Below the pieces are notes generated by a model. It ran no database searches, was not told the DNA's origin, and saw only the letters and a program-made list of their open reading frames with translations. The position numbers and the translations under genes were made by a program. Positions 14,982-19,411 of a stretch of DNA of 61,094 bases are shown piece by piece. Every line of letters begins with the position of its first letter. Position 1 is the first letter of the stretch. Where the stretch lies: assembly GCA_017559825.1 (NCBI GenBank), contig JAFYQR010000060.1, positions 1-61,094 on the forward strand, in the 5' to 3' direction. This DNA is from Thermoguttaceae bacterium. GTDB taxonomy: Bacteria > Planctomycetota > Planctomycetia > Pirellulales > Thermoguttaceae.

Positions 14982-16157
14982 ATGTCCGATTTAATGCCCG
15001 TTCCGTTCGCTCCGCCCGCCGACTTAGCCGACCGTTTGGCGCGTCTTGCCGCCGCGAAAACGCCGAAAATCGCGGTGATCGGCGACTTTTGTCTCGACAA
15101 ATATCTCTTTTTGTCGCCGGAATTAAACGAAATTTCGGTCGAAACGGGGAAAACGGCGTTCCAAATTCGGGCGCGGCGCGTTTTTGCCGGAGCGGGCGGG
15201 ACGGTCGCGAACAACTTGCGGGCGCTCGGCGCGGCGACGTCTTGCTTCGGAATCGTCGGCGACGACGGCGACGGTTTCGAACTTTTGAAGGCGCTTCGCG
15301 GAATCGGCGCCGACGTTTCCGGAATGGTCGCGTCGTCGGAAGTCCTTACGTCGACTTATGTTAAGCCGACGAGTCCGGACGGCGACGGCGGTTGGGTCGA
15401 AGAAAATCGTTACGACGTTCGCAATCCGGGCCCGTTCCCGACGGCGGCGGTCGACGCGCTCAAAGAAAATTTCCGCAAGCGCGTCGCGGAGTTCGACGCG
15501 GTCGTCGTTTTGGAGCAGTTCCCGCCCGGTTCGGAGACGACGTTTTCGCCGGACTTTCGCGCTTTTTTGGCGGACGTCGCCCGCGCCAACCCCGACGTTT
15601 TCTTCCTTTGCGACTCGCGTTTCTTCGCCGAAAGTTACCGCGAAACGCTCGTCAAATGCAACGCGAACGAGCTGCTCGACGTTTTCGCGACCGCTCGCGG
15701 GGCCGACCGCAAACGAGAAACGACGCTCACCGGCGACGCGGAGTCGAACGTCGCGGCGCTTTGCGAAGCGGGCGCTTGGTTGGCAAAGCGCAACGGTCGT
15801 CCGGTTTTAGCGACGCGCGGCGCCCTCGGTTCCCTCCTCTTCGGCGTCGCCCAAACCGACCAGACGCCGCAAACTTCCCAAACCGCCAAAGCCTCCGACG
15901 TTGCCGATATTGCCCCGTCCGCTAAAAACGCCCAGATTTCCGTTTTCGCCGTCCCGCCGCGTCCGGTCGAACCGCCGTTCGATATTTGCGGCGCGGGCGA
16001 CGCGACGAACGCCGGTTTTGTTTTCGCGCGGTCGCTCGGTTTTTCGCTCGTCGAGTCGGCGTTTTTGGCGGGCGTCGTCTCGTCGATCACGATCAAGCAA
16101 CTCGGCGTTACCGGAACCGCGACGGTCGAGCAAATCGTCGCCGCGTTGACGGAATGA
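14982..16157 (+). CDS. PfkB-family sugar kinase, HldE kinase-like
   Basis: 391 residues from the ATG at 14982; an earlier in-frame start at 14862 has an unlikely Arg/Cys-rich leader. The opening IAVIGDFCLDKYLF and the GAGGTVANNLRALGA segment are those of ADP-heptose-type kinases (HldE N-terminal domain). The PfkB signature DICGAGDATNAGF, with its anion hole and catalytic Asp, lies near the C-terminus. A Thr/Gln/Ala-rich insert (about residues 289-320) interrupts the domain before this motif. HldE kinase phosphorylates heptose 7-phosphate on the way to surface heptose. There is no adenylyltransferase domain. The neighbouring HAD phosphatase and glycosyltransferase fit glycan-precursor synthesis, but other sugar substrates are possible. 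Confidence 0.82.
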   Translation: MSDLMPVPFAPPADLADRLARLAAAKTPKIAVIGDFCLDKYLFLSPELNEISVETGKTAFQIRARRVFAGAGGTVANNLRALGAATSCFGIVGDDGDGFELLKALRGIGADVSGMVASSEVLTSTYVKPTSPDGDGGWVEENRYDVRNPGPFPTAAVDALKENFRKRVAEFDAVVVLEQFPPGSETTFSPDFRAFLADVARANPDVFFLCDSRFFAESYRETLVKCNANELLDVFATARGADRKRETTLTGDAESNVAALCEAGAWLAKRNGRPVLATRGALGSLLFGVAQTDQTPQTSQTAKASDVADIAPSAKNAQISVFAVPPRPVEPPFDICGAGDATNAGFVFARSLGFSLVESAFLAGVVSSITIKQLGVTGTATVEQIVAALTE

Positions 16158-16233
16158 TCGCCCGCCGACACGCCGACTTCGCGCTTTTATCGTTTTCGCA
16201 ATTCCTTTCCCTCCGCGTTTTGGAGTTTTTGTA

Positions 16234-17463
16234 ATGTCGACGTCGAAAAATTTATCGTCGCAAGAAATTGTCGGGCGTCAGTTGGAGGACTTTTACGAGC
16301 TACGTCGCAAAATCGTCAAAATCCTTACGCCGCGCAACGAATACGAAGAACCGTCCGTCGCAGAATACCGCGAACTTCTCGACGCGCTTCAAGAAAATCT
16401 CGGCGAAATGGAGGCCGCGACGCGGGAGCTTCTTCAACGTTACAATCGCTCGGAAAATCGTTTAAAAAACGTCTTAGAAGCCAACCGTTCCATTTGGACG
16501 CGCCCAACGGGCTTAGCGGCGGAAAAAATTCCGGTCTTTTGTCCTCTTGTTCGTCGCCCGACGGCGCCAAGCGGCGGAAAAACGCGAATCGTCTCTTTTA
16601 TTAATCTAAAGGGCGGCGTCGGCAAAACGACGTTGACGGCGAACCTCGTCGCGGCGTTCGCGGCGGGCAATTTTCGCGACCTCGACGGTCGCTCCAACCG
16701 CCCGGCCCGCATTCTTGCCGTCGACCTCGACTTCCAAGGGACGCTTAGCCAACGTTGCGCTCGTCCCAACGACTTACAAAACGCGTATAAAAACAGATTA
16801 ACGTCGACTCGGCTTCTCGACAACCCGTCAAAAGTAAAAATCGAGTTTGAGGATTTAACCGTTCCCTTCCTCGGCTCGCCCAACGCGGACCTCCTTCCGG
16901 CTTACGAAGATCTCGACGATAAAGACGTTCGCCGCCTCAACGAATTGTCGAGTCGTTACCAAGAAACGCGTTTTTTTCACCGTCTTTGGTTCCATCGTCC
17001 CGACGTTTTTGAAAAATACGACTTCGTTTTCTTCGATTGTCCGCCGCGTTTAACGGCCTCCTCGGTTTGCGCGCTTGTCGCCTCCGATTCGGTCTTTATT
17101 CCGACGGCGCCGGAATCGTTCGACGTCAATTCGATCGCGCGAATGTTAAACTGGTTCGGGAAAACCCGACAAAATTTGCGCCTCCCCGTTCAATTTGGCG
17201 GCGTCGTCCTTAATCGCACCAACAACGAAAACGACTTGACGACGATCGAAGAAAAGAATAAAACTCGCATAAAATTATTTTACGACGATTTCCGCGCTTT
17301 TTTTCCCGATTCGCCCGATCGTCCCGCCGTTCTCGACGCCTTTATCCCACGTCGCACCGGCGGCAATTACATTAACGGCGTCGACGGCAAACCGCTTCCT
17401 TACGCCGCGTCGCCCCATTTTCACCGTCTCGCGACGGAAGTTTATCGGAGAGTTTACCAATGA
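16234..17463 (+). CDS. ParA/MinD-like ATPase with N-terminal helical extension
   Basis: 409 residues. The deviant Walker A motif KGGVGKTT is at 126-133, the switch I-like region VDLDFQGTLSQRC follows, and Walker B is FVFFDCPP. A later TAPESFDVNSIARML segment is typical of ParA. Unlike a plasmid ParA, the first 90 residues form a predicted helical, Glu/Arg-rich extension (YELRRKIVKI, EYRELLDALQENLGEMEAAT). ParA-type ATPases position DNA or protein cargo by ATP-driven binding to the nucleoid or membrane. The ATG has a GGAG site. The stop overlaps the next start by four bases (ATGA), so the two proteins are probably made in a fixed ratio. No ParB and no parS-like repeats are seen nearby. Confidence 0.82.
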   Translation: MSTSKNLSSQEIVGRQLEDFYELRRKIVKILTPRNEYEEPSVAEYRELLDALQENLGEMEAATRELLQRYNRSENRLKNVLEANRSIWTRPTGLAAEKIPVFCPLVRRPTAPSGGKTRIVSFINLKGGVGKTTLTANLVAAFAAGNFRDLDGRSNRPARILAVDLDFQGTLSQRCARPNDLQNAYKNRLTSTRLLDNPSKVKIEFEDLTVPFLGSPNADLLPAYEDLDDKDVRRLNELSSRYQETRFFHRLWFHRPDVFEKYDFVFFDCPPRLTASSVCALVASDSVFIPTAPESFDVNSIARMLNWFGKTRQNLRLPVQFGGVVLNRTNNENDLTTIEEKNKTRIKLFYDDFRAFFPDSPDRPAVLDAFIPRRTGGNYINGVDGKPLPYAASPHFHRLATEVYRRVYQ

Positions 17464-18152
17464 CCGCGAACGCCGAAAAAGTTACGTTCCTTCAATCGTT
17501 ACAAGCGTTGGTTCCGTTTTTGAGCGCGAACGCCAAGAAAGAACTCGAAGCGTTGTCCGAGTTGTTGACGATGTTCAAGACGACTTCTCTCGCCGAATTA
17601 AAAAACGCGCTCGTCAAACAACGCAAAAACTTCCTGAAAACGCCCGACGGTTTCGTCGCGAGAATCGAAAAGTTCCAAAACGGCGAAACGCCCGATTTCG
17701 GCGATCCGGACACGGTCGAAACGCTTGTCGCCGACTTCCGAAAAGCGACCGCCTCGACCGTTAAAGCGGTCGCGAAAAAATTCGATCTCGCGTTAACCGA
17801 CAAAAAGGACGCCGACGCGTTCGAACGTTGGTTGAAAACCGGCGTTAAGCCGCCGACCGCCGAAGAGTTGTTAAAAGACGAAATCGACTCGGAAATCAAA
17901 CGAGCGCTTGAATTGCGCGACCAAACTCGCCGCGAATTGGCTCCCGAAACAATTCGCCAAATCCTCGAAATCGCCGAACGGGTTAAAAAAACGTTTAAGG
18001 CCCCCGGACTCGCAATTTTTATGCGGGGCGTCGACGCAATTCCCACCGCGAAAACCGTCGCGGCGTTAATGAAAGAATTACGCGATTTTTTAGAGGATTA
18101 CGCGCTTAACCGTTACAAAGCAACGCAAATCCGCGAAGAGCTTTCCTATTAA
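17460..18152 (+). CDS. Helical partner protein of the ParA-like ATPase, unknown function
   Basis: 230 residues, nearly all predicted helix and rich in Lys, Glu, Ala and Leu; no signal peptide or membrane segment. Visible segments include LSANAKKELEALSELL, a central FDLALTDKKDADAFERWLKTG, and a C-terminal helix ending YKATQIREELSY. The start codon overlaps the stop of the ATPase gene (ATGA at 17460-17463), so translation is coupled. I recognise no domain and in particular no ParB or helix-turn-helix motif. By position it may regulate the ATPase or be the cargo it moves. It could also be a membrane-free adaptor. Confidence 0.7.
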   Translation: MTANAEKVTFLQSLQALVPFLSANAKKELEALSELLTMFKTTSLAELKNALVKQRKNFLKTPDGFVARIEKFQNGETPDFGDPDTVETLVADFRKATASTVKAVAKKFDLALTDKKDADAFERWLKTGVKPPTAEELLKDEIDSEIKRALELRDQTRRELAPETIRQILEIAERVKKTFKAPGLAIFMRGVDAIPTAKTVAALMKELRDFLEDYALNRYKATQIREELSY

Positions 18153-18232
18153 TCGTCCGCGCGTTTTTCAGCGTTTGCGTATTTTCCATCGCTTCACTCC
18201 TCCTATTTCACCTACTTTCTCAACATTAACCA

Positions 18233-19411
18233 ATGTCCCAGTTATTTTCCCGCGACCGCCTTGAAATTTTCCCCCTTGCCCGCCGCGTCAACAAAATCGA
18301 TATCCAACGCGAAGCGATCGACCCGGCGACGCACCCCGTTTCACTGACCGACGAAGCGTTTCGCGACGTCGAAGCGACCGCCGCCGAACTCCGACGCGCT
18401 AAAAAACTCGGCGCCGCTCGCGTTCTAACATACGGCGCGCACTCGATTAAGAACGGCCTCGGCCCGATTCTTTCCCGTCTCGCCGAAAGCGGTTGGCTGA
18501 CGCACCTGACGACGAACGGCGCCGGCGTCATTCACGACTGGGAGTTCGCGTTCCAGGGCCGATCGGGCGAAGACGTCCAACGTTACGCGACCGAAGGCCA
18601 GTTCGGAATTTGGGAGGAAACCGGCCGTTTCATTAACTTAGCGATTATCGTCGGCGCTTACCGCGGGCTCGGTTACGGCGCGGCGGTCGGGCAAACGATT
18701 CTCGACGACGGTTTCGAAATCCCGTCCGACGCCGAACTTCGCGACGCGATCGCCGCCGGAGCGCGCCTTGCCGACGCGTCTATTCCCCCCAATTCGCCCA
18801 ATTTGCCGCAATTCGCCGACGCCAAGCTAACGGAAACGCTCGACCGCGCCGCGGCCGCCGCCGATTTGCTCCGCGCCAAACGACGTTTCGCGCTTCCGGA
18901 CGGCAAGCACGAAATCGCGCACCCGTTCCGCGAATACTCGACCGCCTTCCGAACCCGACGCGCCGACGTCCGTTTCACCTGCGGACCAATGATCGGCTGC
19001 GATATTATTTACACGCACCCGGCGAACGACTGCGCGGCGATCGGTCGCGCCGCCCAACGCGATTTTCTCCTTTACGCCGACTCCGTTTCGCGGCTCGAAG
19101 GAGGCGTTTATCTCTCGGTCGGCTCGGCGGTTTTGTCGCCGATGATTTTCGAAAAGTCGCTCGCGATGTCGCGCAACGTCGCCCGACAGGAGGGGCGTTC
19201 GATAACCGATTTCTCGATTCACGTCGTCGACCTCGCCGAGTCGACCTGGGATTGGACGCGGAACGGCGAACCGCCGCAAACCGACCCGGCTTACTACCAC
19301 CGTTACTGCAAAACGTTCAGCCGAATGGGCGGGCGGATGACGTATTGCGGCGCCGACAACCGCTCTTGGTTTGTCGCGCTCTTGAACGAATTGGAAAAAA
19401 CGCCGGAATAA
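18233..19411 (+). CDS. Conserved protein of unknown function, distantly deoxyhypusine-synthase-like
   Basis: 392 residues, cytosolic, with well-formed motifs that look enzymatic: GAHSIKNGLGPIL, TTNGAGVIHDWEFA, FTCGPMIGCDIIYTHP, LEGGVYLSVGSAV and HVVDLAEST. The stretch ending NGAGVIHDWE has the same shape as the NAD-binding TGGxxEHD region of deoxyhypusine synthase, which suggests a related fold; this is only pattern reading. My recollection is that similar proteins sit beside heptose-synthesis genes in some Gram-negative bacteria, which would fit the kinase upstream, but I cannot verify it. The start ATG lacks a clear ribosome binding site. Confidence 0.6.
   Translation: MSQLFSRDRLEIFPLARRVNKIDIQREAIDPATHPVSLTDEAFRDVEATAAELRRAKKLGAARVLTYGAHSIKNGLGPILSRLAESGWLTHLTTNGAGVIHDWEFAFQGRSGEDVQRYATEGQFGIWEETGRFINLAIIVGAYRGLGYGAAVGQTILDDGFEIPSDAELRDAIAAGARLADASIPPNSPNLPQFADAKLTETLDRAAAAADLLRAKRRFALPDGKHEIAHPFREYSTAFRTRRADVRFTCGPMIGCDIIYTHPANDCAAIGRAAQRDFLLYADSVSRLEGGVYLSVGSAVLSPMIFEKSLAMSRNVARQEGRSITDFSIHVVDLAESTWDWTRNGEPPQTDPAYYHRYCKTFSRMGGRMTYCGADNRSWFVALLNELEKTPE

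Follow-up and report, generated by a model that had tools for sequence, protein, structure and literature searches.

The window, a 61,094-nucleotide stretch of a Thermoguttaceae bacterium contig, was found to hold a two-gene locus on its forward strand, in which a ParA-type ATPase gene is followed by a gene for a helical protein; the features and immediate neighbours of the pair are collected in Table 1. Both open reading frames and their coupling through ATGA were recovered as the first-pass annotation had described them. Among the genus members listed, the stop and start codons overlapped or abutted in 10 of 10, mostly as ATGA, with GTGA, TAATGA and TGATGA once each, and a purine-rich stretch recurred in relatives' loci at the position of the GGAGAG. 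Coding constraint is clear and the junction recurs across the genus, so the locus exceeds chance. The earlier statement that no ParB lies nearby also held: neither ParB nor a parS-like array was detected near the pair, no ParB was seen in the genus loci, and inspection for an iterated parS-like array beside the genes gave only short, imperfect, chance-like repeats within positions 16000-18400. The canonical ParA-ParB operon of the same genome sits on another contig (L001), and the pair is therefore not the chromosome partition system.

Table 1. Features of the ParA/partner locus and its flanks (window positions).
Feature	Position	Strand	Evidence
RfaE/PfkB-type sugar kinase, upstream neighbour, left edge of site	14982..16157	+	TIGR02198 8e-25, below model cut-off
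ParA-type ATPase, 409 aa	16234..17463	+	Pfam AAA_31 7.6e-24; AF2 pLDDT 81; Foldseek Soj/ParA E 2e-14; genus-conserved motifs
ParA N-terminal helical extension, residues 1-115, ending in linker with Trp88	16234..16578	+	predicted helices, hydrophobicity, W column
ParA ATPase domain, residues 117-409	16582..17460	+	Pfam and PDB matches
GGAGAG, ribosome-binding-site-like, inside ParA 3' end, 7 nt before partner ATG	17447..17452	+	sequence
ATGA stop/start overlap of ParA and partner genes	17460..17463	+	sequence
Helical partner protein, 230 aa, no known family	17460..18152	+	AF2 pLDDT 87; no family match; genus-conserved
Partner N-terminal core, residues 5-112	17472..17795	+	hhalign to partners of membrane-anchored ParAs
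Partner C-terminal domain, residues 139-226	17874..18137	+	homologous to end of phage-like polyvalent protein in G017
GSU2086 family protein, downstream neighbour, right edge of site	18233..19411	+	NF052581 1.6e-86, above cut-off

Residues 117-347 of the window ParA were matched by Pfam AAA_31 and by CbiA (6.2e-13), and the folds nearest to its AF2 model were those of Soj/ParA. The best PDB matches by both sequence and fold were Soj/ParA structures (Thermus Soj 2bek and 8ray; Vibrio ParA2 7npd-7npf), which share with it the ATPase fold, KGGVGKT and DxDxQ. The KGGVGKTT, DLDFQ and FDCPP motifs were kept across the genus, and in an alignment of 25 members of the wider clade described below KGGVGK and D-x-D-x-Q were invariant and D...PP nearly so. 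A deviant Walker A with its signature lysine, Walker A' and Walker B were assigned from these motifs, which place the protein in the ParA/MinD (A/D) ATPase superfamily. It also matched phrog_164 (2.6e-38), of the partition ATPase superfamily, and plasmid searches returned only generic ParA proteins of about 30% identity or less.

The extension preceding the ATPase domain (about 110 residues) is mostly helical, with helices predicted at residues 9-31 and 42-82, and gave no helix-turn-helix match. Its maximum hydrophobicity was 0.54, that is, without a transmembrane (TM) helix, and intact ParAs of the genus ranged from -0.13 to 0.76 as against 1.4-2.8 in the other, distant clade members. The first-pass annotation had called this a unique 90-residue helical extension; it is helical and somewhat longer, and it is not unique, since homologous ParAs elsewhere carry a longer TM helix plus extension; the window version is a reduced form of this common family trait. 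Trp88, just before the ATPase domain, was retained in 24 of the 25 family members in the alignment; a Trp likewise lies upstream of the ATPase domain in 19 of 59 other ParAs, and its conservation is thus only suggestive.

The partner was modelled by AF2 as helices only, with a helix from residue 10, and comparison of its sequence with Pfam, NCBIfam, PHROG, PADLOC and the PDB gave nothing above noise, in keeping with its original description as fully helical and free of known domains. A match to ParB, BcsQ or a phage partition protein, which the annotation had proposed to look for, was not obtained from Pfam, NCBIfam or PHROG. Foldseek (PDB, BFVD) and VIA-align searches with the model gave no significant match, the top rows being ribosomal protein S20-like chains at Z 6, within helical-bundle expectation. 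A SAP-like identity considered for the C-terminal domain was dropped, being supported neither by Pfam nor by fold search. IMG/VR viral contigs scanned with the window ParA and with the partner yielded no relative. A basic, disordered N-terminal tail is described as usual for partner proteins of A/D ATPases (PMC10241942); this was sought in the partners and was absent, since most of the 28 examined have a net charge close to 0 over their first 15 residues (range -3 to +3), so that activation of the ATPase, if any, must use another region of the partner. Genus partners were about neutral (pI 5-9) and many distant partners basic (pI 9-10). Co-evolution of ParA and partner beyond that of the flanks was weak (partial Mantel p 0.046).

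GTDB genomes were scanned with the ParA alignment, and distant ParAs were recovered from Gemmataceae, Isosphaeraceae, Thermogutta and Myxococcales and, on the alphaproteobacterial side, from Hyphomicrobium, Hyphomonas, Henriciella, Methyloligella and Rhodobacteraceae; these come from the best 80 of 494 matches, and the number of family members is accordingly a lower bound. In a tree of the ATPase domain, calculated with the N-terminus left out of the alignment, the genus and at least 20 ParAs of Planctomycetota, Myxococcota and Alphaproteobacteria formed one clade (SH-aLRT 98), set apart from the other ParAs sampled. Comparable gene pairs thus extend beyond the genus, over three phyla. An N-terminal hydrophobic helix was present in the distant ParAs (Kyte-Doolittle values of at least 1.6 in 18 of 20, the other two borderline at about 1.4), followed by an extension of variable length that is long and coiled-coil-like in most planctomycete members. 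Judged by these hydrophobicity profiles, the predicted TM helix of the other clade members is lost or absent in the window's genus. A small gene for a helical protein lay directly downstream of ParA in 20 of 20 distant members, and no other gene was common to the clade's loci beyond close kin.

Homology of the downstream genes was assessed with profiles of 9-10 sequences, on which the following values rest. With hhalign, the N-terminal half of the genus partner was aligned to alphaproteobacterial partners at 88-90% probability (score 45.6, shuffled maximum 20) and the genus partner to planctomycete partners at 51-85%; scores against the two groups were 42-46, and shuffled or reversed profiles scored no higher than about 20. 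Planctomycete and alphaproteobacterial partners matched each other at 97-98% profile probability, with a reversed control itself raised to 65%. Searches of about 390 planctomycete genomes with the partner domain gave only marginal matches, so either members of the class are few or the profiles lack power. An IMG/VR scan with a Hyphomicrobium family member returned one generic ParA only, and a search of the open-access literature for membrane-anchored ParA proteins found nothing relevant, which counts as weak evidence. The pair apparently belongs to an undescribed branch of ParA systems that is mostly membrane-anchored elsewhere. In one Hyphomicrobiales locus (L090, 8146-13372), two adjacent TM-ParA/partner pairs and, beside them, one more ParA-like gene were found downstream of genes named from their sequences as dnaX-ybaB-recR; a related genome (L117) has similar surroundings.

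Within the genus, at least 14 of 20 genomes had the pair, whole or truncated by a contig end; most genomes compared were draft MAGs. As far as contigs reach, the site in every carrier was between the RfaE/PfkB-type kinase and the GSU2086-family gene, and wherever the contig continued the partner gene was directly downstream of ParA. Empty sites, in which the kinase directly adjoins the GSU2086 gene, were found in G006, G009, G011 and G016, with a gap of 42 bp in G009. In G008 the start of ParA runs into a frameshifted partner, which we read as a probable decayed copy; the G019 contig breaks at the site, leaving its state outside the counts, and an apparent frameshift interrupts the ParA of G001. 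A tree built from the two flanking proteins required at least three changes, and both genes always went together; from the four precise empty sites and the one decayed remnant it follows that both were lost together at least three times. Outside the genus, the partner was absent from 40 of 40 family and order genomes tested. The co-occurrence in relatives that had been put forward as a test was therefore borne out as strict pairing, with a patchy distribution.

The pair differed from its neighbours in composition and divergence. Mean identity of the partner was 40%, as against 70% in the flanks. GC3 was 0.59-0.61 in the pair versus 0.69-0.74 in neighbouring genes, and nucleotide identity to close relatives was 66-83% over the pair, whereas most neighbouring genes came close to 90% or exceeded it. 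In comparisons with the close relatives G010, G015 and G017, dS was 0.75-0.90 for the window pair and 0.18-0.32 for the flanking genes, a synonymous divergence about threefold that of the flanks; omega of both genes was 0.23-0.32 over all comparisons (about 0.25). This pattern is consistent with either an exchange of diverged alleles or a relaxed constraint on codons, with the proteins under purifying selection. In the rumen MAG RUG14274 (L082), ParA and a partner of 37% identity are followed by a different gene, presumably, from its sequence, a glycogen-synthase-like protein. The L082 ParA nests inside the genus (support 96), and the pair can therefore change place as a unit. On the evidence of joint losses, relocation, low GC3, high synonymous divergence and an omega of about 0.25, the pair is a functional, dispensable cassette outside sugar metabolism. 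Its placement inside sugar-metabolism genes, as first annotated, is correct insofar as the flanks are conserved neighbours; as a functional context it was rejected, because the flanks persist at empty sites and neighbours differ in L082 and in distant relatives.

A 1931-aa phage-like polyvalent protein was identified in G017 (contig C110, L061/L218, 10160-15952), the last 85 residues of which are homologous to the partner C-terminal domain (blastp 37%, E 4e-14; genome search E 1.2e-12). It matched phrog_21 (portal family, 1e-44) and phrog_19458 (primase, 1e-22), and a GHHRFNLAK motif in its phrog_21 region looks ParB/Srx-like, with no support from Pfam. An IMG/VR scan with this protein found no relative. 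Polyvalent proteins with ParB-like domains have been described, and an association with ParA-like proteins was reported absent (Iyer et al. 2017, PMC5512222); should the link to the phage protein prove correct, this would be a first connection of ParB-like polyvalent proteins to a ParA. Host proteins of about 560-630 aa, present in most genus genomes (L209-L217), share a region of about 140 residues with the polyvalent protein (873-1025 of the L061 protein), overlapping the primase-family match.

We consider it somewhat probable that the pair is a stand-alone, dispensable ParA/adaptor positioning module. The ParA would dimerise on ATP and attach to a surface within the cell, in this case probably the nucleoid, with its relatives tethered to the membrane by the TM helix and extension; the helical partner would bind the ATPase, probably trigger ATP hydrolysis and link it to a cargo, which ATP-driven release and rebinding would space or place. 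ATP-dependent dimerisation, physical binding, ATPase stimulation, surface choice and cargo are all features that we infer. The reading is drawn from ATPase motifs invariant across the clade; from genes either both present or both absent, with at least three losses and a decayed copy losing both; from movement as a unit in L082; from a single ATPase clade with a small downstream gene behind 20 of 20 membrane-anchored ParAs and no other common neighbour; from profile-homologous partner families, checked with shuffled and reversed controls, and the omega values of both genes; and from the separate ParAB of the genome. Against it stand the lack of a cargo gene or conserved neighbour, a partner fold that matches nothing known, the missing basic tail and the weak co-evolution. 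It is rather doubtful, though conceivable, that the pair further represents one branch of an undescribed ParA class, with a TM and extension tether secondarily lost in the genus, a tail-less helical adaptor and a self-sufficient cassette, whose adaptor C-terminal domain is carried on a polyvalent protein by phage-like elements of this genus so as to hook onto the ATPase of the host or jam it.

Three further readings, namely DNA partition, phage conflict and a relic, were given lower weight than positioning. A module that partitions or maintains (former) mobile elements, with a DNA-binding partner and a ParA that segregates or stabilises a replicon or integrated island, would accommodate the partition-superfamily match, the cassette-like GC3 and divergence, relocation as a unit, the basic distant partners and the partner domain at the end of a phage-like protein with portal- and primase-family regions; such a module is nevertheless unlikely, given that the chromosomal site is the same throughout the genus and lies between housekeeping-type genes, that neither an integrase nor a replication gene nor an iterated parS-like array was seen beside the pair, that genus partners are near-neutral, and that IMG/VR gave no match and plasmids only generic ParA matches. 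Neither protein of the window pair had a PADLOC 2.0.0 match at E 0.01, no effector domain was found, the pair is not in a defence island and omega is well below 1, all of which make an anti-phage or competition system with a ParA-type switch distinctly unlikely, even though patchiness with repeated losses, fast divergence (mean partner identity 40%, flanks 70%) and a phage-like protein that, like a decoy, bears the C-terminal domain of the partner are what such a conflict system might leave.

An ATP-dependent role in regulating the sugar-related enzymes next to the pair, or in assisting their assembly as a chaperone, is suggested by the constant position of the pair downstream of the RfaE/PfkB-type kinase in the genus, and was judged very improbable because the flanking genes persist without the pair, L082 has a different downstream gene and distant relatives have unrelated neighbours. 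Least probable of all is a relic with no current function in the genus: at least 5 of the 20 genomes have lost the pair or keep a decayed copy and the G001 ParA is frameshifted, but omega is low in both genes and the catalytic motifs are invariant in carriers.

The positioning reading was also compared with known systems. Unlike Soj/ParA, the window pair lacks an adjacent ParB or parS, its partner is unrelated to ParB and a helical extension is added. The carboxysome system McdA-McdB, as is generally known (see also PMC10241942), likewise consists of two genes, a ParA and a small non-ParB partner for a protein cargo; McdA, however, aligns only as a distant ParA, and the window pair has no carboxysome context and no basic N-terminal tail on its partner. 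MinD-MinE and other membrane-based A/D ATPases combine membrane attachment with a small downstream partner gene, as do the distant relatives of the window ParA, but those relatives bear a real TM helix plus extension and the window genus none, no MinE or MinC lies beside the pair, and the window ParA scored well below the MinD model cut-off. Tyrosine autokinases (eps_fam/Wzc) have in common with the TM-ParAs a TM segment and a P-loop of the MinD/ParA superfamily; the match was weak (1e-5, far below cut-off), and here there is a single TM helix, a ParA-type Walker A and a separate helical partner gene.

ParA/MinD ATPases are responsible for much of the internal organisation of bacterial cells; many are orphans, since their partners vary too widely to be recognised (PMC10241942). 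The clade defined here across three phyla has a fixed, nameable partner family and comprises mostly membrane-anchored members and a soluble branch, through which surface choice and adaptor recognition become testable.

ParA genes with coupled neighbours were also seen outside the clade. Actinobacterial ParAs (L141, L152) have an N-terminal region that reads as excisionase-like and a coupled gene of 149-197 aa, and may be another ParA pair without ParB. A verrucomicrobial group was represented by L137, and also by L110 and L125; the L137 ParA is coupled through ATGA to a helical-looking gene of 211 aa, without ParB.
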